Positions 27,140-41,314 of a stretch of 64,000 nucleotides of DNA are shown one piece after another. Origin of the DNA: Pedobacter segetis (GTDB lineage: Bacteria; Bacteroidota; Bacteroidia; Sphingobacteriales; Sphingobacteriaceae); the NCBI RefSeq assembly GCF_016623585.1, contig NZ_JAEHFY010000006.1, forward strand, positions 62,001 to 126,000, in the 5' to 3' direction. Position 1 is the first letter of the stretch, and each line of letters starts with the position of its first letter. Under the pieces are notes generated by a model. It saw only the letters and a list, made by a program, of their open reading frames with translations. It made no database searches and was not told the DNA's origin. Made by a program: the position numbers and the translations under genes.

Positions 27140-27169
27140 TTGCATATCCCTTTTTGGTTATTATATTTG
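27140..27169 (+). promoter_or_regulatory. Promoter of the histidine operon
   Basis: TTG (27140-27142), 19 bases, TATATTTG (27162-27169) matches the Bacteroidota consensus exactly. Predicted start near 27176 leaves a leader of about 160 bases before hisG, which contains the His-rich leader peptide. Confidence 0.8.
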
Positions 27170-27206
27170 CGCAACACAATTTCTATCCAAAGAAATTTAT
27201 AAAGAC

Positions 27207-27269
27207 ATGAAAATAAAATTGGCCACATCACATCATCTACATCATCACCATTATGGTGTTGCTATATAG
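27207..27269 (+). CDS. Histidine-rich leader peptide of the his operon
   Basis: A 20-codon reading frame (ATG at 27207, TAG at 27267-27269) translates as MKIKLATSHHLHHHHYGVAI, with six His among seven consecutive codons. It lies between the his promoter and hisG, exactly where classical attenuation leaders lie. Stalling at His codons when charged tRNA-His is scarce would change folding of the downstream leader. A 13-base palindrome (CACCAT T ATGGTG, 27246-27258) sits within the His codons. Downstream there are only short AT-rich hairpins (GTTTTG/CAAAAC at 27273-27289, CAATT/AATTG at 27294-27306), so the terminator step is not clear. Role inferred from position and composition. Confidence 0.85.
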   Translation: MKIKLATSHHLHHHHYGVAI

Positions 27270-27272
27270 TTT

Positions 27273-27321
27273 GTTTTGTACGTCAAAACTTTTCAATTCT
27301 CAATTGTTTGTCTTTTATTTA
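27273..27321 (+). promoter_or_regulatory. Possible his attenuator hairpins
   Basis: Two adjacent short inverted repeats, GTTTTG-TACGT-CAAAAC and CAATT-CTC-AATTG, followed by GTCTTTTATTT. CAAA of the first could instead pair with TTTG after the second, so two exclusive folds are conceivable. All stems are weak and AT-rich. Confidence 0.35.
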
Positions 27322-27336
27322 TAATCTCAAAAAATC

Positions 27337-28188
27337 TTGAAAACTTTAAAAATCGCTATACAGAAATCTGGCAGATTGAATGAAAAATCTGTAGAACTGC
27401 TAAAAAATTGTGGCCTCAGCTTCGAAAACTATAAAAGTTCCCTAATATCCACGGTTTCTAATTTCCCTTTAGAAATCCTATTTTTAAGGGATGATGATAT
27501 ACCAGAATATGTGCAAGACGGCATAGCCGATATTGGTTTGGTCGGCGAAAACGTAATTGCCGAAACCGGTGTTGATGTAGCTTATTTACAACGACTTGGA
27601 TTTGGGAAGTGCACCTTAAAAATCGCAGTACCAAACAACAATCAATATCAAAACATTGCAGATTTAAGCGGAAAAGCTATTGCAACCTCCTACCCTGTTA
27701 TTCTTCAAAAATTCTTGGATAAAGAAAAAATTAACGCCGATATTAAAACCATTTCTGGATCGGTAGAGATTGCACCGGGTTTAGGTTTAGCAGATGCCAT
27801 TTTTGATATTGTTTCTACAGGCGGCACTTTACGTAGCAATGGCTTAAAACCTTTTGCAGATGTAATGTCATCAGAAGCTATTTTAATAGGTAGAAAAGGG
27901 ATAGAAAATGAACATTTAGTTTTAGAATTATTGCAACGCATACAATCGGTAATGCGGGCAAAAGAAACCAAATATGTGGTCTTAAATGTAGAAAAATCAA
28001 ATCTCGATAAAATTCTAAATTTATTGCCAGGGGTTAAAAGCCCTTCGGTTTTGCCTTTGGCAGAAGAAGGTTGGGTTGCCGTACATACCGTAATACCAGA
28101 ACGCGATTTCTGGAGCCACATCAACGAGTTAAAAGCCGCTGGCGCACAAGGAATTGTGGTAATGCCGATAGAGAAGATAATTTTATAG
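27337..28188 (+). CDS. hisG: ATP phosphoribosyltransferase (long form)
   Basis: A 283-residue HisG, long form with a C-terminal ACT-like regulatory domain, so HisZ is not needed. MKTLKIAIQKSGRLNEKS begins at a TTG codon (27337); no ATG fits better. ADIGLVGENV and DAIFDIVSTGGTLRSNGL mark the catalytic domain. It condenses ATP and PRPP, the first and feedback-inhibited step of histidine synthesis. It is the first gene of the operon and follows the leader peptide after 67 bp. The TTG start may lower its expression. Confidence 0.95.
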   Translation: MKTLKIAIQKSGRLNEKSVELLKNCGLSFENYKSSLISTVSNFPLEILFLRDDDIPEYVQDGIADIGLVGENVIAETGVDVAYLQRLGFGKCTLKIAVPNNNQYQNIADLSGKAIATSYPVILQKFLDKEKINADIKTISGSVEIAPGLGLADAIFDIVSTGGTLRSNGLKPFADVMSSEAILIGRKGIENEHLVLELLQRIQSVMRAKETKYVVLNVEKSNLDKILNLLPGVKSPSVLPLAEEGWVAVHTVIPERDFWSHINELKAAGAQGIVVMPIEKIIL

Positions 28189-28289
28189 TACCAAGATTAT
28201 TTAGAATCAAGATTTTAGCATCAAGTATCAAAAACTTTTAAAACGTTTTTATATTTTATAAAATAGAAACATTATTTAATATAGTATTT

Positions 28290-28409
28290 GGGCGTTTTAA
28301 CACGCCTGCCCGAACAAGCGGGCTTATCCACTATAGTTTTTTTGTTGTCGGCCTCAGCGGAGTTTAAGGTTAAAGCACCAAAAAAAGCTGTCGTTTCTAT
28401 CGTTAACGC
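28290..28409. repeat. Interspersed hairpin-type element between hisG and hisD
   Basis: About 120 bp bounded by GGGCGTTTTAACACGCC on the left and CTATCGTTAACGC on the right. Inside are a T-run, a core with CCTCAGCGGAG, and an A-run, so it can fold into a large imperfect hairpin. The right end occurs in inverted form near 35562. I recall elements with this layout (GGGCGT... GCGTTAACGAT) as common intergenic repeats in Bacteroidota genomes. It lies within the 293-bp hisG-hisD gap, which otherwise holds filler-like sequence. A frame through it is not a gene. Confidence 0.7.
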
Positions 28410-28481
28410 AAATAAAAAATGGAAAAAATCAATGACCAAAAATCAAATCAAAAGTCTTTATCTTTTGGAGAAGGATTTAGG

Positions 28482-29765
28482 ATGAGGCAATATTCTTTTT
28501 CAGGTTTAAGCAAAGCAGCTATTCAGAAATTGGTCCTAAGGAATGTTGATGCTAACAATAACATTCGTGGAACAGTAGAAGATATAATTTCTGAGGTAAA
28601 AGCAAAAGGTGATGGAGCTTTAAAATCTTTCGCCCAAAAATTTGATGGAGTTGCGTTGGATAGTTTGTTTATCGATAAAAATAAAATAGATGAATTAGCC
28701 GCAACTATCTCTCCAAAAGTAAAAGACGCCATCAACATCGCCTATCAAAACATCAAAAAATTTCACCAAACGCAAATATCAAAAGAAGAAAAGGTAGAAA
28801 CTACAACGGGCGTAACTTGTTGGAGAGAAGTAAGGGCAATTGAAAAAGTAGGTTTATATATCCCGGGCGGAACGGCTGTTTTGCCAAGTACTTTTTTAAT
28901 GTTGGGCATCCCGGCAAAAATTGCAGGCTGTAAAGAAATTGTGGTTTGCTCGCCCCCGCAAAAAAGCGGAGAGGTAAATGGCTATTTGGCTTATGTTGCC
29001 CAATTATTGGAAATTGATAGAATATATCTAGTTGGCGGTGCCCAAGCCGTGGCTGCAATGGCCTACGGCACAAAAAGCATCACAAAAGTTGATAAGATCT
29101 TTGGCCCGGGAAACCAATTTGTTACCATGGCAAAAACCTTGGTACAATCTACCACAAATACCGCTATTGATATGCCCGCTGGCCCATCGGAAGTTTTGGT
29201 AATTGCTGATGAAACGGCAAATCCTGTTTTTGTGGCTGCAGATTTATTGGCCCAAGCAGAACATGGCGTTGATAGTCAATCTGTTTTGGTTTGTATCTCC
29301 CAAGCAACCATCGATCAAACACAAATTGAATTAGAAAAACAATTAAATATACTGCCGAGAAAAGAAATTGCCGCAAAGGCCATGGCAAATTCATATACTG
29401 TTCTGGTTAAAGATTTAGAAGAAGCCATAGATTTCAGTAATGAATATGCACCTGAACATTTGATTTTGGCAACTGATAACTGGAAACCCATTACAAATAA
29501 AATAATCAATGCAGGTTCTGTTTTTGCAGGGAATTTAACCCCAGAAAGTGCCGGAGATTATGCCAGTGGCACAAACCATACTTTACCTACAAGTGCTTAT
29601 GCCCGCTCTTATTCTGGTGTTTCTTTAGATTCTTTTGTAAAAAAAATCACGTTCCAGCACATCAGCGAAAGCGGCATAAAAAATTTAGGGAAAACAATTG
29701 AGACTTTGGCAGAAATTGAAGGATTGCAGGCTCATAAAAATGCGGTATCTGTTAGACTGACTTAG
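28482..29765 (+). CDS. hisD: Histidinol dehydrogenase
   Basis: A 427-residue HisD when started at the ATG at 28482 (MRQYSFSGLSKAAI), which has a purine-rich GGAGAAGG upstream; a longer frame from 28419 would add 21 residues of non-conserved sequence. Motifs seen are GLYIPGGTAVLPST, GGAQAVAAMAYGT, GPGNQFVTMAK, DMPAGPSEVLVIAD, QAEHGVDSQS and APEHLIL. It oxidises histidinol to histidine in two NAD-dependent steps using zinc. Second gene of the operon, after the interspersed element. Confidence 0.95.
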   Translation: MRQYSFSGLSKAAIQKLVLRNVDANNNIRGTVEDIISEVKAKGDGALKSFAQKFDGVALDSLFIDKNKIDELAATISPKVKDAINIAYQNIKKFHQTQISKEEKVETTTGVTCWREVRAIEKVGLYIPGGTAVLPSTFLMLGIPAKIAGCKEIVVCSPPQKSGEVNGYLAYVAQLLEIDRIYLVGGAQAVAAMAYGTKSITKVDKIFGPGNQFVTMAKTLVQSTTNTAIDMPAGPSEVLVIADETANPVFVAADLLAQAEHGVDSQSVLVCISQATIDQTQIELEKQLNILPRKEIAAKAMANSYTVLVKDLEEAIDFSNEYAPEHLILATDNWKPITNKIINAGSVFAGNLTPESAGDYASGTNHTLPTSAYARSYSGVSLDSFVKKITFQHISESGIKNLGKTIETLAEIEGLQAHKNAVSVRLT

Positions 29766-29854
29766 ATTCAAGAAACAAGTATCAAGAATCAAGACGCTTA
29801 AACTGGTTTTTAACTAATGATTAATGAACTATTTCAACTAATGAACTCAAAAAA
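29766..29854. repeat. Low-complexity filler between hisD and hisC
   Basis: An 89-bp gap made of word-like repeats (CAAGAAACAAGTATCAAGAATCAAGA, written here as CAAGAAACAAG and TCAAGAATCAAGA, then AACTAATGA, ATTAATGAAC and AACTAATGAAC). Similar words occur at 63610-63700 and elsewhere. It does not encode protein and is not a clear hairpin. Confidence 0.6.
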
Positions 29855-30907
29855 ATGTTTGAATTAGATAAAATTTTAAGAGAAAATATAAAAAACCTAA
29901 AACCTTATTCTTCTGCAAGAGACGAGTTTAAAGGGGAAGCTTCCATTTACTTAGATGCCAATGAAAATGCGTTTGGATCGCCACTTTCTAAAGATTATCA
30001 TCGTTACCCAGATCCAATGGCCTATGCCGTAAAGATGCGCCTGAGCGAAATTAAAGGTGTGCCGGCCAGAAATATTTTTTTAGGGAACGGTAGCGATGAA
30101 GCCATTGATATTTTATTAAGAAGCTTTTGTAATCCCGGGGTTGATAACGTAATCGTTGTACCCCCTACTTATGGGATGTATGAAGTCTCGGCAAATATTA
30201 ATGATGTTGGGATAAAAAGAGTAAATCTTACTGAAGATTTCCAACTTAATTTAGAAAAGATTGCAGAAGCAATTGATAAAAACACAAAGTTGATCTTCAT
30301 TTGCTCGCCAAATAACCCAACAGGTAATTCTATCAACAGAGAAGATATTGAAACGCTTTTGGCCAATTTTAACGGGATTGTGGTGGTTGATGAGGCTTAT
30401 ATCAACTTTTCACGACAAAAAACTTTTATCCAAGAACTAACGGAATATGCCAATTTGGTGGTTTTACAAACTTTATCAAAAGCATGGGGATTAGCAGCTC
30501 TAAGGGTTGGGATGGCTTTTGCAAGCGAAGAAATAATCGAGGTTTTTAATCGTGTTAAACCGCCTTATAACATTAACCAAGCCTCACAAGAATTAGCTTT
30601 AGAAGCTTTACAAAATGTAGAACAAGTTAACAATTGGATCAAAGAAATTTTAAAAGAACGTGATGCTTTGGTTTTAGCATTAAAGAATTTTGATTTTGTA
30701 ATTGATATTTATCCATCAGACGCAAATTTTATTTTAGTGAAAACTGCTGATGCAGACGGGATCTATAAATATTTGACAGAAGAAGGAATTATAGTGAGGA
30801 ACAGAAATAAAGTGGAACTTTGCGAAGGATGTTTAAGGATTACAGTTGGTACAAACGAAGAAAATAAAGCGATGATCAACAGCTTAAAAAAATTGAAAAA
30901 TGACTAA
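29855..30907 (+). CDS. hisC: Histidinol-phosphate aminotransferase
   Basis: A 350-residue fold-type I PLP aminotransferase. Motifs are [11 protein letters not shown] at the N-terminus, [33 protein letters not shown], and the PLP lysine in [14 protein letters not shown] (near residue 210). It converts imidazole acetol phosphate to histidinol phosphate with glutamate as donor. Its end overlaps the start of hisB by 8 bp, which indicates translational coupling. Confidence 0.95.
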
Positions 30908-32036
30908 ATTACTTTTTATAGATAGAGACGGAACGCTTATTCTTGAGCCTGCAGATGAGCAAATTGATTCTTTTGATAAACTGGTTTTTTACCCCGGTGC
31001 CATTAGTAACCTATCAAAAATCGTGAAAGAAACCGATTATGAATTAGTAATGGTAACCAATCAAGATGGTTTGGGAACACCCGCCCATCCTGAAGAAAAT
31101 TTTTGGCCGGTTCAAAATTTCATCGTACAAACCCTTAAAAATGAAGGCATCAGCTTTAGCGAAATAATAATAGATAAAACATTTGCAAAAGACAATGCAC
31201 CAACCCGTAAACCAGGAACCGCTTTGCTAACTCATTTTTTTGATGCCGATAAATACGATTTAACCAATTCTTTTGTTATCGGCGATCGTTTAAATGATGT
31301 TGTTCTGGCTAAAAACCTAGGCGCAAAAGCCATTTGGTTAAACAATAACCCTGATTTGGGTGCAACCGAAGCCCAAAATAAAACCGATAATCTAAAAGAA
31401 GTTTTAGCACTTGAAACTTCAGATTGGGATGAAATCTACAGATTTCTAAAAGTTGGGGATCGCAAAATAGAACATATCCGTAAAACAAATGAGACAGACA
31501 TCCTCATCAAAATAAATTTGGATGGAAAAGGTAATGCAGATATTAAAACAGGATTGAACTTTTTTGACCATATGTTAGATCAAATCGCCCGTCATGGTGG
31601 CATAGACCTAACCGTACATACCAAGGGAGATCTACATATTGATGAGCATCATACCATTGAGGATACCGGAATTGCCTTGGGAGAAGCTTTTGCTTTGGCT
31701 TTAGCCGATAAAAAAGGAATTGAACGCTATGGCTTTTGTTTACCGATGGATGATTGTTTAGCACAAGTTGCCATAGATTTTGGTGGAAGAAACTGGATAG
31801 TTTGGGACGCAGAATTTAAAAGAGAGAAAGTTGGCGATATGCCAACCGAAATGTTCTATCATTTTTTCAAATCTTTTTCTGATGCCTCAAAATCTAATTT
31901 AAACATCAAAGTAGAAGGCGATAATGAGCATCATAAAATTGAAGCGATATTTAAGGCATTTGCAAAAGCCATTAAAATGGCCGTTAAAAGAGATATCAAT
32001 AATATGAGGTTGCCCAGTACAAAAGGAATATTGTAG
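30900..32036 (+). CDS. hisB: Bifunctional histidinol-phosphatase / imidazoleglycerol-phosphate dehydratase
   Basis: A 378-residue fusion like that of Escherichia coli. The N-terminal HAD phosphatase (about 1-165) has [10 protein letters not shown] and [10 protein letters not shown]. The C-terminal IGP dehydratase (about 185-378) has [31 protein letters not shown] and [15 protein letters not shown], the metal-binding histidine sets. It catalyses steps 6 and 8 of histidine synthesis. It overlaps hisC by 8 bp and is separated from hisH by a hairpin-rich gap. Confidence 0.95.
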
Positions 32037-32119
32037 GGATAACCCTTGGGTTATCCAGATAATTTTGAGGGATAACCTTTGGGTTATCCTTTAGGTTATC
32101 CGTATAATTGGGATAATCC
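32037..32119 (+). repeat. Cluster of GGATAACC / GGTTATCC hairpins between hisB and hisH
   Basis: Immediately after the hisB stop codon lie a 9-bp inverted repeat (GGATAACCC TT GGGTTATCC, 32037-32056), a second (GGATAACC ... GGTTATCC, 32070-32089), a further GGTTATCC at 32094-32101 and a GGATAATCC at 32111-32119. The T-runs expected of a terminator are absent. It could slow decay or processing of the his mRNA or be a REP-like mobile repeat. Confidence 0.85.
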
Positions 32120-32152
32120 AATGATTACCCCTACACAACACAACATTAAAAA

Positions 32153-32749
32153 ATGATAGGAATTGTAAATTACGGAGCCGGTAATATTTTTTCTTTAACC
32201 GCCGCATTAGAGAGATTGAATTTAGAATATGGCATGATCAATTCAGAACCTGAATTTGATTTGTATGAGAGGATCATTATCCCCGGGGTTGGACATGCCG
32301 GTGCCGCAATGAAAAAACTAATGGATACTGGTTTGGTTCCAAAAATAAAAAGCTTAAAGAAACCGGTTCTCGGTATTTGTGTTGGGATGCAGCTGATAAC
32401 AGATTTTTCTGAAGAAGGGGATTCTGAAATGTTGAAGATAATACCTGTTAAAACGTTAAAATTTAAAGAAGAAACCTCAAAGAAAATTCCTCACATGGGA
32501 TGGAACAAAGTTTTTTTAACACAAGAAAATCAATTATTTAACACAATAGTAGATGGGGCATATTTTTATTTTGTGCATTCCTATTTTATAGAATTTAATT
32601 CTAAATTTACCATCTCGTATTGTAATTACGGAATAAAATTTTCCGCAAGCATACAAAAAGATAACTTTTACGGAGTACAGTTTCATCCAGAAAAATCTGG
32701 CAAGGCCGGAGAAACGCTCCTTAAAAATTTCGCAAACTTAAAACTATAA
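32153..32749 (+). CDS. hisH: Imidazole glycerol phosphate synthase, glutaminase subunit
   Basis: A 198-residue class I glutamine amidotransferase. The nucleophile cysteine is in VLGICVGMQL (near residue 75) and the His-Glu pair in VQFHPEKSG (near 178). It supplies ammonia from glutamine to HisF. ATG at 32153; hisA begins one base after its stop codon. Confidence 0.95.
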   Translation: MIGIVNYGAGNIFSLTAALERLNLEYGMINSEPEFDLYERIIIPGVGHAGAAMKKLMDTGLVPKIKSLKKPVLGICVGMQLITDFSEEGDSEMLKIIPVKTLKFKEETSKKIPHMGWNKVFLTQENQLFNTIVDGAYFYFVHSYFIEFNSKFTISYCNYGIKFSASIQKDNFYGVQFHPEKSGKAGETLLKNFANLKL

Positions 32750-32750
32750 A

Positions 32751-33500
32751 ATGTACATTATTCCCGCTGTTGACGTTTTAAACCAAAAAATAGTTCGTTT
32801 GGTAGAAGGCGATTATAACCAAGTAACACAATATGAAGTTTCTTTAGAAGAACAAATTGAAACTTACCAATCTAACGGGACAGAGTTTGTCCATATCATA
32901 GATCTAAACGGGGCCAAAGGCGATTTCAGCAACCAAAAATATTTGTTCGATATCATCAGAAAAACCGAAATGAAGGTTCAGTATGGTGGTGGTGTTAGAA
33001 GTATCGATAAAGTTAAAGAGTTGATAGATGCTGGTATTCACAGGGTTATTGTTGGTACGCAAGCTATTACAAACCCTACTTTTTTAGAAGAACTGAGTAA
33101 CGAGATATGTAATAAAACTAAATGTAGCGATCAGGTTGTGGTAGCTGTTGATGTTTTAGATGAGGTTATCAAATATTCTGGATGGATGGAAAGCTCACCG
33201 ATAAAATTGATGGATTACATTGATAAATGCTTACAACTTGGTTTTTACCGTTTTTTATGTACCGATATTAATAAAGACGGGAAACTGGGGGGTGCAGGGG
33301 TAGATCTTTACAAAAAATTATTAGCCCACTCACCTTTCATTAAGCTAATAGCTTCCGGAGGCATCAGCTCTATGGATGACATTAAGGAATTAAACGATTA
33401 TAAAATAGAATCTTGCGTAGTTGGCAAAGCTATTTATGAAAACCGCATTTCTATAGATGAAATAAAAAATTGGAATTTGCAGCGTTTATCTTCTATCTAA
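32751..33500 (+). CDS. hisA: ProFAR isomerase (HisA)
   Basis: A 249-residue (beta/alpha)8 phosphoribosylformimino-5-aminoimidazole carboxamide ribotide isomerase. MYIIPAVDVLNQKIVRL carries the first catalytic aspartate, and the second lies in TDINKDGKLGG. GGGVRSIDKV and IASGGISSMDDI are the phosphate-binding loops. Its stop codon is directly followed by the hisF start, so the pair is coupled, as their sequential reactions suggest. Confidence 0.95.
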   Translation: MYIIPAVDVLNQKIVRLVEGDYNQVTQYEVSLEEQIETYQSNGTEFVHIIDLNGAKGDFSNQKYLFDIIRKTEMKVQYGGGVRSIDKVKELIDAGIHRVIVGTQAITNPTFLEELSNEICNKTKCSDQVVVAVDVLDEVIKYSGWMESSPIKLMDYIDKCLQLGFYRFLCTDINKDGKLGGAGVDLYKKLLAHSPFIKLIASGGISSMDDIKELNDYKIESCVVGKAIYENRISIDEIKNWNLQRLSSI

Positions 33501-34256
33501 ATGTTAAGTAAACGCATTATCCCTTGTTTAGACGTAAAAGACGGGCGTACTGTTAAAGGTATAAACTTTGTTGATTTACGTGATGCTGGCGACCCCGTTG
33601 AATTGGCTTGGCAATATTCTAACCAGGGAGCGGATGAGTTGGTTTTTTTGGATATTACCGCAACCCATGAAAAAAGAAAAACCACCATTGAAATGGTAAA
33701 ATCCGTGGCTAGGCAAATAAACATTCCATTTACCATTGGAGGTGGGATCACAGAACTAAAAGATGCCGAAGCTTTATTAAATGCTGGTGCAGATAAAATC
33801 TCTATCAACTCAGCAGCGGTAAGGAGACCAGAATTGATCAATGAGCTGGCCGATGCTTTTGGTGTTCAGTTTGTGGTTTTGGCTGTTGATACTAAACATT
33901 TATCTTCTGGGGATTTTGTACATCTAAACGGTGGCAGAATTGCGACAGCATTAAAAACCCAAAATTGGATCAAAGAAGCAGAGCAACGTGGAGCAGGAGA
34001 AATTTTATTGACCTCTATGGATAAGGATGGCACAAAATCTGGTTTTGACAACCTTCTTTTAAAGGAAATAAATGATATGGTCTCAATCCCCGTAATCGCA
34101 TCAGGCGGAGCTGGTTGTAGTCAAGATTTTATTGATGTTTTCAAAAAAAGTGATGTTGATGCTGCTTTGGCCGCTTCCGTTTTCCATTATGGCGAAATCT
34201 TAATCCCAGAATTAAAACAACTATTAAAGAATAACCAAATAGAAATCAGGATTTAA
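33501..34256 (+). CDS. hisF: Imidazole glycerol phosphate synthase, cyclase subunit
   Basis: A 251-residue barrel protein. [20 protein letters not shown] carries the first catalytic aspartate, [11 protein letters not shown] the second, and [10 protein letters not shown] and [10 protein letters not shown] the phosphate loops. With HisH it produces IGP and AICAR. In a usual his operon hisIE would follow directly; here a toxin-antitoxin remnant lies in between. Confidence 0.95.
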
Positions 34257-34272: not shown

Positions 34273-34497
34273 ATGGAAACATTTACTGTAGAACTCATAA
34301 ACCCAAAAGCTAAAAAGTTATTACAAGATTTAGCGGATATGAATTTGATTACGATAAGCAAATCAAAAAAATCTTTAGATAATCTTTTGAATACCTTGAG
34401 GTCTAATGAAACTCCTAGCATCGAAGAAATAACTAAGGAAGTTGAAAAAGCAAGAACTAAGAGGCATGAAAGTAAAACAGCCAATAGTTATAATTGA
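34273..34497 (+). CDS. Putative antitoxin (partner of a decayed PIN toxin)
   Basis: A 74-residue charged protein (METFTVELINPKAKKLLQDL...), 16 bp after hisF. The form VELINPKAKKLLQDLADMNLI is typical of short antitoxins paired with PIN-domain toxins, with a helical, Lys/Glu-rich C-terminal half that would bind the toxin. The reading frame is intact. The next gene starts inside its 3' end (34466), as in many toxin-antitoxin pairs. The assignment is from context and general similarity; I cannot name the family. Confidence 0.7.
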   Translation: METFTVELINPKAKKLLQDLADMNLITISKSKKSLDNLLNTLRSNETPSIEEITKEVEKARTKRHESKTANSYN

Positions 34498-34881
34498 CAC
34501 TAACCTTTGGATTAGTTTCTTAATTTCTAGAGAGTTATCTTGGCTAGATGATTTAATTAAAATCTCATAAAATTAAATTAGTTTGTAGTGAAGAGTTATT
34601 AGCATAATTGAAGTAATAAATCGACCAAAATTTATAAAATACTTTAATTCAACAAAATCAATGCTTTTACAGAGTTGATTGAGAATTATTTAGAAGTTAT
34701 TAAAGTTGAATCTTCGATATCAATTTGTAGAGATGAAAAAGATGATTTTATTTTAGCCTTAGCTAAAGATGCCAAAGCAGATTATATAATTACTGGAGAC
34801 AACGATTTATTAGTTTTAAACCCATTTGATAAAACTAATATATTAACGTTTAAAGATTTTAAACAAAAATTTAAAAATTAA
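34466..34881 (+). pseudogene. PIN-domain toxin, broken by frameshifts
   Basis: ATG at 34466 gives IIDTNLWISFL (first PIN aspartate), but the frame ends at TAA 34568-34570. The same protein continues in a second frame (HKIKLVCSEELLA), then a third (IEVINRPKFIKYFNSTKSML), then the frame ending at 34881 (EKDDFILALAKDAKADY and TGDNDLLVLNPF, which carry the remaining PIN acidic residues). Three shifts, near 34568, 34606 and 34675, are needed to restore it. Assembled, it resembles COG1569-type PIN toxins. The toxin is therefore inactive unless the shifts are sequencing errors, which three within 200 bp makes unlikely. Confidence 0.8.
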
Positions 34882-34884
34882 TTA

Positions 34885-35472
34885 GTGAAAATAGATTTTA
34901 CAAAGAGCAACGGATTAGTGCCTGTGATCATTCAGGATGAGCAAACTTTAGAGGTTTTAATGTTAGGCTACATGAACGAAGAAGCTTACCAAAAAACCGA
35001 AAAAGAACAAAAAGTTACTTTTTTCTCTCGAACCAAAAACCGCTTATGGACAAAAGGAGAAGAAAGTGGCAACTTTTTAAATGTAAGATCAATTGCTTTA
35101 GATTGCGATAATGATACGCTCTTAATAAAAGTTAAACCGGTTGGGGCAACCTGCCATAAAGGTACGAGGAGCTGTTTTGATACGGATTTTAACCAGAATT
35201 TTATTTTCCAATTAGAAAATATCATCAACGATAGATATAAAAATCCCTCGGCTAAATCTTATGTTAATAGTTTAAGAGAAAAAGGTTTAAACAAAATTGC
35301 GCAAAAAGTGGGCGAAGAAGGTGTTGAGACCGTAATTGCGGCATTGGCCGAAACCGAAACGGATTTAATCAACGAATCCTCTGATCTGCTTTTTCACCTA
35401 TTGGTTTTATTGAAAGAGAAAGGTTTATCTATCAACGATATTGCTAAGAATCTGGAAGCTAGGCATCAATAA
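34885..35472 (+). CDS. hisIE: Bifunctional phosphoribosyl-AMP cyclohydrolase / phosphoribosyl-ATP pyrophosphatase
   Basis: A 195-residue HisI-HisE fusion starting at a GTG (34885), three bases after the decayed toxin gene. The HisI half has WTKGEESGN, DCDNDTLL and the zinc motif CHKGTRSCF. The HisE half has KVGEEGVETVIAAL near residue 140. The two activities are steps 2 and 3 of histidine synthesis. Last gene of the his operon. Because toxin decay left the spacing intact, read-through into hisIE seems preserved. Confidence 0.95.
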   Translation: MKIDFTKSNGLVPVIIQDEQTLEVLMLGYMNEEAYQKTEKEQKVTFFSRTKNRLWTKGEESGNFLNVRSIALDCDNDTLLIKVKPVGATCHKGTRSCFDTDFNQNFIFQLENIINDRYKNPSAKSYVNSLREKGLNKIAQKVGEEGVETVIAALAETETDLINESSDLLFHLLVLLKEKGLSINDIAKNLEARHQ

Positions 35473-41107: not shown

Positions 41108-41205
41108 AATGAATATTTAGGAAATGACAGGCAACTAACAGTCTTTTGTAGAAGTAATGTTAAAAAAAGAAAAATCTGGATTTTTTAAAGAAAAGAAAAA
41201 AAAGT

Positions 41206-41302
41206 GGGTTAGCCCCTTCTATCGCACCGCTACAACCTCTTACCCTTGCTGCGTTCCCACCCTGGGGGAGTTCAGAAGGAGCTGGTCGTAGAAGACTAAC
41301 CC
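41206..41302 (-). ncRNA. ffs: Signal recognition particle RNA, small bacterial type
   Basis: On the minus strand, GGGTTAG at the 5' end pairs with CTAACCC at the 3' end, giving about 97 nt. The apical domain reads CCAGGGTGGGAACGCAGCAAGG: a GGAA tetraloop closed by G-C, with the conserved CAGG and AGCA of the Ffh-binding symmetric loop. A -7 element TACCTTTG (41307-41314) lies just before the 5' end and a T8 run just after the 3' end. It forms the SRP with Ffh (not in this window) for cotranslational membrane targeting. The remaining DNA from 41039 to 41385 holds only the fsa promoter. Confidence 0.93.
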
Positions 41303-41306
41303 GCCG

Positions 41307-41314
41307 CAAAGGTA
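41307..41314 (-). promoter_or_regulatory. -7 element of the SRP RNA promoter
   Basis: TACCTTTG on the minus strand ends five bases before the mature 5' end. A TTG lies 23 bases upstream, a little beyond the usual 19-21. Confidence 0.65.

Follow-up and report, generated by a model that had tools for sequence, protein, structure and literature searches.

How might a run of histidine codons ahead of hisG govern expression of the his operon when no transcription terminator stands between the two? The question is raised by a locus in the window, the whole 64-kb stretch of DNA (64,000 nucleotides) that was analyzed. A leader ORF at 27207-27269 (+) extends from ATG to TAG, encodes MKIKLATSHHLHHHHYGVAI in 20 codons before its stop, and ends 67 nt upstream of hisG. 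Its control codons, His-His-Leu-His-His-His-His (HHLHHHH; 27231-27251, +), place six His within seven codons. Such a density, at least six His per seven codons, occurs a single time in the six frames of the window and in none of 30 Markov-1 simulations of it. Upstream lies a Bacteroidota-type promoter at 27140-27169 (+), composed of TTG at 27140-27142, a 19-nt spacer, and TATATTTG at 27162-27169; the his mRNA probably starts at about 27174-27176. The TAnnTTTG box is the promoter type of the primary sigma factor of Bacteroidota (PMC9723704) and 54 of 60 relatives have such a box within the 75 nt that precede the leader ATG. A sigma-70 scan did not detect the leader promoter, as expected for the Bacteroidota type. 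The promoter, the 20-codon frame, and the six-in-seven His run had all been reported in a preliminary description of this DNA and are confirmed at these positions. The same is true of the palindrome that it placed within the His codons, which is CACCATTATGGTG at 27246-27258, inside and just past the last of them.

The gene that follows is hisG (27337-28188, +), which has a TTG start and was identified by TIGR00070 (E 2.8e-57) and TIGR03455. It is succeeded by hisD, hisC, the bifunctional hisB, hisH, hisA, and hisF (28419-34256, +) and by hisIE, the final gene of the cluster (34885-35472, +). Two gaps in the operon carry additional features. A G+C-rich inverted repeat, GCCCGAACAAGCGGGC, contrasts with its AT-rich surroundings between hisG and hisD (28190-28420), and two small ORFs of 74 aa and at least 68 aa (IITGDNDLL) occupy the gap between hisF and hisIE (34273-34881); by eye, the latter look like an antitoxin/PIN-domain toxin pair inserted into the operon. 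Elsewhere in the window, a small SRP RNA is encoded at 41202-41309 (-; Rfam RF04183, E 4.4e-21).

Conservation of the leader was assessed at two depths. The 80 nearest hisG loci were collected by scanning GTDB genomes with the HisG protein, and represent Pedobacter, Mucilaginibacter, Daejeonella, Pelobium, Olivibacter, Parapedobacter, and their relatives. A class-wide sample comprised 388 genomes, among which hisG was found in 170; the upstream regions of 110 were taken and 76 of these could be positioned automatically by means of the HisG N-terminus, including 62 from outside the family of the window. Families are designated here by label alone, f1 being that of the window (Pedobacter, Mucilaginibacter, and kin). 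A short His-rich ORF precedes hisG in 79 of the 80 nearest relatives. At least three His per eight codons are found ahead of hisG in 58 of the 62 genomes of other families, compared to 6 of 76 in the opposite-strand control; for at least four His per eight codons, the counts are 48/62 and 0/76. As the run is conserved both in relatives and in other families, a chance origin is excluded. The search for relatives that have lost it therefore failed to refute the preliminary reading of leader-peptide attenuation, which these counts strongly support. The locus has one of the hallmarks of a ribosome-mediated amino-acid attenuator, namely a conserved short leader ORF rich in codons for the end product, and the pattern of conservation makes it very probable that this is a His-sensing, ribosome-mediated leader.

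What is absent is the usual output device. A terminator scan found no intrinsic terminator between the leader and hisG in the window, and f1 leaders provide no convincing example, the one automatic match among 89 being doubtful: the call, at locus L015, is a hairpin over the last His codons (P2, described below) followed by a short T-rich stretch. The intrinsic terminator between leader and first gene that characterizes classical attenuators is consequently not found here. This bears out the preliminary remarks that no strong terminator with a long T-run was visible, and that the switching step may differ from the enterobacterial model. By the same automatic search, 44 of the 62 leaders of other families contain a terminator-like hairpin, though a small number are questionable or correspond to an overlapping hairpin of family f2. 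The layout typical outside f1 is a leader, a GC-rich hairpin with a U-run, and then hisG, mostly with an ATG start. The f48 group, for example, shows it as AAACCCGTTTGAGTACATCAAACGGGTTTTTT; close to the leader stop, a CTCAAGCG/CTCAGGCG strand competes.

Other amino-acid leaders in the same genome retain terminators. At L206, a Trp leader, MKIKINTKRWWWHNKNVASVALFVS, lies upstream of a gene for a chorismate-binding enzyme (trpE-like) and is followed by an intrinsic terminator; the trpE leader includes MKIKINTKRWWWHNK and RWWWHNK, and its terminator is ACCCGACGCTTCAACCCGTTGGGTTTTTTT. At L208, a Thr leader, MILTNTYTTTTTTLIA, lies upstream of a gene for a long aspartokinase (thrA-like) and is followed by the terminator GCGCCTTCCGAATAATCGGTGGGCGCTTTT. 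Since both leaders have terminators, their absence is specific to his and is not organism-wide.

Two further arrangements were observed in other families. In the terminator-bearing leaders of flavobacterial type at L126, L127, L131, L132, L175, L180, L181, and L185 (f48, f21, f22, f34), a strand between terminator and hisG is complementary to the 5' arm and loop of the terminator, as illustrated by GTTTGAGTAAATC / GATTTACTCAAAC at L131. Swapping of partners between species indicates that this pairing is specific (-12.0 vs -8.5 +/- 0.6, p 5e-5), and a second tier of control after the terminator is possible in these leaders. At L166, L168, L105, L138, L139, and L142 (f2 and part of f16), the leaders end in HHSS and a stop, and a palindrome such as ATTCCTCC-TAG-GAGGAAT spans the leader stop, with a T-rich stretch after it in some; the palindrome may form a terminator-like hairpin overlapping the leader itself.

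In place of a terminator, f1 leaders contain a conserved fold of three elements (P1, P2, and P3), recognized by eye and by folding. In the window, these are preceded by P0, a small hairpin in the 5' UTR upstream of the leader start (AATTTCT/AGAAATT, 27178-27197, +), predicted by MFE folding at 25 and 37 C. P1 is a long-range helix that joins the region before the leader AUG and the first eight leader codons to the leader-hisG spacer. Its 5' arm (27201-27223, +), delimited by family-level complementarity, lies from just before the AUG through the start codon into the leader's opening codons (AAAGACATGAAAA..TTGGC). Its 3' arms (27282-27315, +) are GTCAA at 27282-27286, TTTTCA at 27290-27295, and TGTCTTT at 27309-27315, which pair with the leader codons, the leader start, and the 5' UTR, respectively; the median distance from the 3' end of the outer arm to the downstream hisG is 14 nt. 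P2 is the hairpin of the last His codons and the end of the leader (CACCAT-T-ATGGTG, 27246-27258, +), supported by folding and by counterparts in relatives (e.g. CATCGC..GCGATG). P3 is a hairpin unique to f1 (GTTTTG-TACGT-CAAAAC, 27273-27289, +). Its family form is GTTTC-TACG(T/C)-GAAAC, with covarying versions GTTTTG/CAAAAC in the window and GCTTC/GGAGC at L112; in the class-wide sample, the motif is found in 12 of 14 f1 genomes vs 0 of 62 others. Where the P3 pattern was matched in 11 relatives, the element lay upstream of hisG in all 11. P3 was also considered as a genome-wide element and rejected, as the genome of the window has one extra match, with two mismatches, and matches equal those of a reversed control.

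The evidence for P1 comes from comparison between species. Its arms vary between genera yet match within each species: AAAGAC/GTCTTT and TGAAAA/TTTTCA in the window, AATCAG/CTGATTA and ACCAA/TTGGT at L023, AACGG/CCGTT in Mucilaginibacter, and AUGAACG/CGUUCAU at L058. RNAalifold on MAFFT alignments recovered P2 and P3 and P1 only incompletely, because the P1 arms slide between species; a partner-swap permutation test was therefore used, in which each 5' arm was paired with the 3' arm of its own species and with those of others. For 13 divergent representatives (<70% identity), with the 5' UTR and eight codons set against the spacer, own partners gave -14.5 kcal/mol vs -9.0 kcal/mol for permuted ones (sd 0.85, p<=5e-5). 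The negative controls (segment E against the hisG start; the P2 3' arm against the spacer) showed no gain. Compared to dinucleotide-shuffled 3' arms, the mean z-score over 60 species was -2.2, and 58% of species fell below -2. For the window alone, the energy of the single duplex is no better than that of shuffles (z +0.8), so the predicted P1 fold is well supported at the level of the family and not from the window by itself. The preliminary description had noted weak, AT-rich hairpins downstream of the leader; these are present, but they give an incomplete picture, as the conserved fold is the long-range P1. Rfam contains no match to the locus, with chance matches alone at a relaxed threshold: His_leader (RF00514) did not match at the gathering or relaxed threshold, nor did the T-box model match at the locus.

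To relate this fold to translation of the leader, 60 leaders were folded with the footprint of a ribosome constrained to be unpaired. The modeled number of pairs in the codon arm of P1 is 8.4 in free RNA and 8.0 with a ribosome at the stop, and 0.45, 2.2, and 5.1 with a ribosome at the first, second, and third His codons; the outer arm is less sensitive, with values in the same order of 9.7, 9.4, 5.7, 8.1, and 8.8, and is predicted to survive a stall in part. The model suggests that the codon part of P1 is lost when a ribosome stalls on the first His codon but persists when the ribosome is at the stop. This has the logic of an attenuator, with a restraining helix predicted to form when the leader is untranslated or the ribosome has reached the stop, and to weaken upon stalling at the first control codons. 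In the window itself, the outer arm stays nearly intact in the model under a stalled ribosome (6.3 of 6.4 pairs). Taken together, the locus is probably, on balance, a ribosome-sensing His attenuator without an intrinsic terminator, where a fold that closes the leader has replaced the terminator.

The favored option for the output of this device, held tentatively, is translation initiation at hisG. The his mRNA would begin near 27175 and first present the 20-codon ORF with its six His codons. If the leader were not translated, or the ribosome stood at its stop, P1 would pair and the leader would be closed (OFF), leaving a structured block some 10-20 nt upstream of the hisG start; the 3' end of P1 would then fall in the region needed by the initiating 30S subunit. 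When His-tRNA was scarce, a ribosome would stall on the first His codons and cover the codons of the inner half of P1, so that the segment upstream of hisG stayed open and hisG was initiated more frequently (ON), an effect that operon polarity would amplify. Both His starvation as the signal and the direction of the switch are inferred. Bacteroidota mostly initiate translation without Shine-Dalgarno signals, and there is no such signal to score here. The hisG start is non-ATG in all 89 tabulated relatives with short spacers (46 GTG, 43 TTG), in which 53-83 nt separate the leader stop from hisG; an apparent exception outside this table is L199, where hisG begins Met-Gln-Thr immediately after a stop. 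Parapedobacter and Olivibacter present the chief obstacle to a purely translational output. In these bacteria P1 is kept (own partners -11 to -21 kcal/mol), and hisG lies 100-319 nt past the leader stop, with an ATG start in all five such members. P1 is therefore not tied to the hisG start in this group, and Rho or polarity remain candidates.

An output through Rho would employ the same sensor and is a credible, if rather unlikely, alternative. When His is replete, the untranslated spacer and early hisG RNA would be open to Rho and RNA polymerase would be stopped, while a ribosome stalled in the leader, together with the fold favored thereby, would keep Rho off. This would be consistent with the absence of an intrinsic terminator and with the retention of the fold far from hisG in long-spacer relatives, and a Rho-linked option has been proposed for terminator-less mycobacterial cys leaders (PMC1262725). 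The spacer also contains more C than G (0.17 vs 0.10 on average), but C is moderately abundant at most, and conserved C-rich blocks were not seen; moreover, the spacers of the 89 relatives are short for Rho loading unless hisG is poorly translated.

A classical switch between terminator and antiterminator could instead operate through weak AT-rich hairpins, either P3 with UUUU or CAATTCTCAATTG with a U-rich tail. The window does contain CAAAAC followed by TTTT, and CAATTCTCAATTG followed by TTTGTCTTTT, and most families of the class have leaders with a terminator. This reading is nevertheless improbable: the U-run after P3 is missing in Mucilaginibacter (GAAATAACAACC) and Daejeonella, the second hairpin is lost even among near relatives, and the terminator scan detected neither. 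Still less likely is a direct masking of the hisG start codon by the fold, in line with the blocked initiation at the TTG that the preliminary description had offered as one possibility. TTTTCA at 27290-27295 could pair either with leader ATGAAAA or with hisG TTGAAAA, and a TTG or GTG start is universal in the tabulated short-spacer relatives. However, complementarity of segments E and F to hisG is no better than with permuted partners (for segment F only this lack of gain was used, as a few species had empty segments that distorted the absolute energies of its swap tests). The hisG start is about 60% unpaired in every modeled state, and the predicted accessibility of hisG -20..+15 is near-constant between states (0.60-0.62). 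As the start codon is unmasked and its accessibility does not change, direct blocking is unsupported. That there is no attenuation at all, the small ORF being a relic or serving re-initiation alone, is scarcely credible: 36 of 60 relatives do have a short ORF that lies between leader stop and hisG and overlaps the start of the latter, which would suit re-initiation, but it is missing from the window and Daejeonella and its end is not conserved, and the His codons ahead of hisG are conserved class-wide, with a fold specific to the hisG leader. In Mucilaginibacter loci (e.g. L033, L037, L073), where this second ORF (MFLREITT...) is common, it starts 3-5 nt past the leader stop, and in several species it terminates within the start of hisG, the two codons overlapping as TTGA or GTGA; for want of a conserved end, and given its absence from the window and Daejeonella, MFLREI... 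was rejected as a shared element.

The usual teaching presents attenuation as a switch based on a terminator; here one bacterial class has both forms at hisG, which therefore provides natural comparisons for the gain and loss of terminators. A single genome likewise holds both, with his lacking a terminator and trp and thr possessing one. We tentatively propose an attenuator class restricted to Sphingobacteriaceae-like bacteria: the leader mRNA may close on its own start codon, and a stalled ribosome may free a gene whose non-AUG start is weak and which has no Shine-Dalgarno sequence; the ancestral terminator would have been lost at his and kept at trp and thr. The his leader is also a concrete candidate for regulated translation initiation in Bacteroidota.

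In the erm/cat translational attenuators, a ribosome stalled in the leader by a drug disrupts a helix that holds back the gene downstream, and the Shine-Dalgarno sequence or start is masked. The proposed f1 device resembles them in that a stalled leader ribosome would break the helix restraining the next gene; it differs in that amino-acid supply is the likely signal and that no masking of a Shine-Dalgarno sequence or start is seen. The enterobacterial his attenuator (Rfam His_leader, RF00514) likewise has a run of His codons in a short leader preceding hisG, and there too the His codons pair with the strand that follows (a pause-type hairpin). In contrast to it, the window has no terminator/antiterminator and no Rfam match, and P1 uses the leader's own start region. 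In some attenuators the terminator is replaced by a structure that sequesters the ribosome-binding site (PMC9413887). Terminator-less leaders of unknown output have been described in Actinobacteria, as has the LEU element upstream of leuA (PMC1262725), which also combines a codon-run leader peptide with an unclear output and pairs its leader with the region before the gene. In the LEU element, the Shine-Dalgarno box is bound by the Leu codons within a pseudoknot (PMC1262725), whereas the f1 leader uses its start region and first codons to pair with a spacer that is not a Shine-Dalgarno sequence, and its His codons form their own hairpin.

A further comparison lies within the Bacteroidota. The transcriptome of Flavobacterium psychrophilum provided clues to leader-peptide attenuation at amino-acid operons, and a conserved 5' element without an Rfam family was reported upstream of hisG (PMC9723704). 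No description of the f1 fold was found in the literature searched, most subscription journals being outside the search. The terminator-bearing hisG leaders (the F. psychrophilum element, by its description, f48, and others) share with f1 the orthologous position, the His-rich leader, and the promoter type. They are distinguished by a GC-rich hairpin with a U-run and a mostly ATG hisG, whereas f1 has neither and contains P1 and P3 instead. Attenuation of hisG in flavobacteria is already reported, and the terminator-less fold is the new part.
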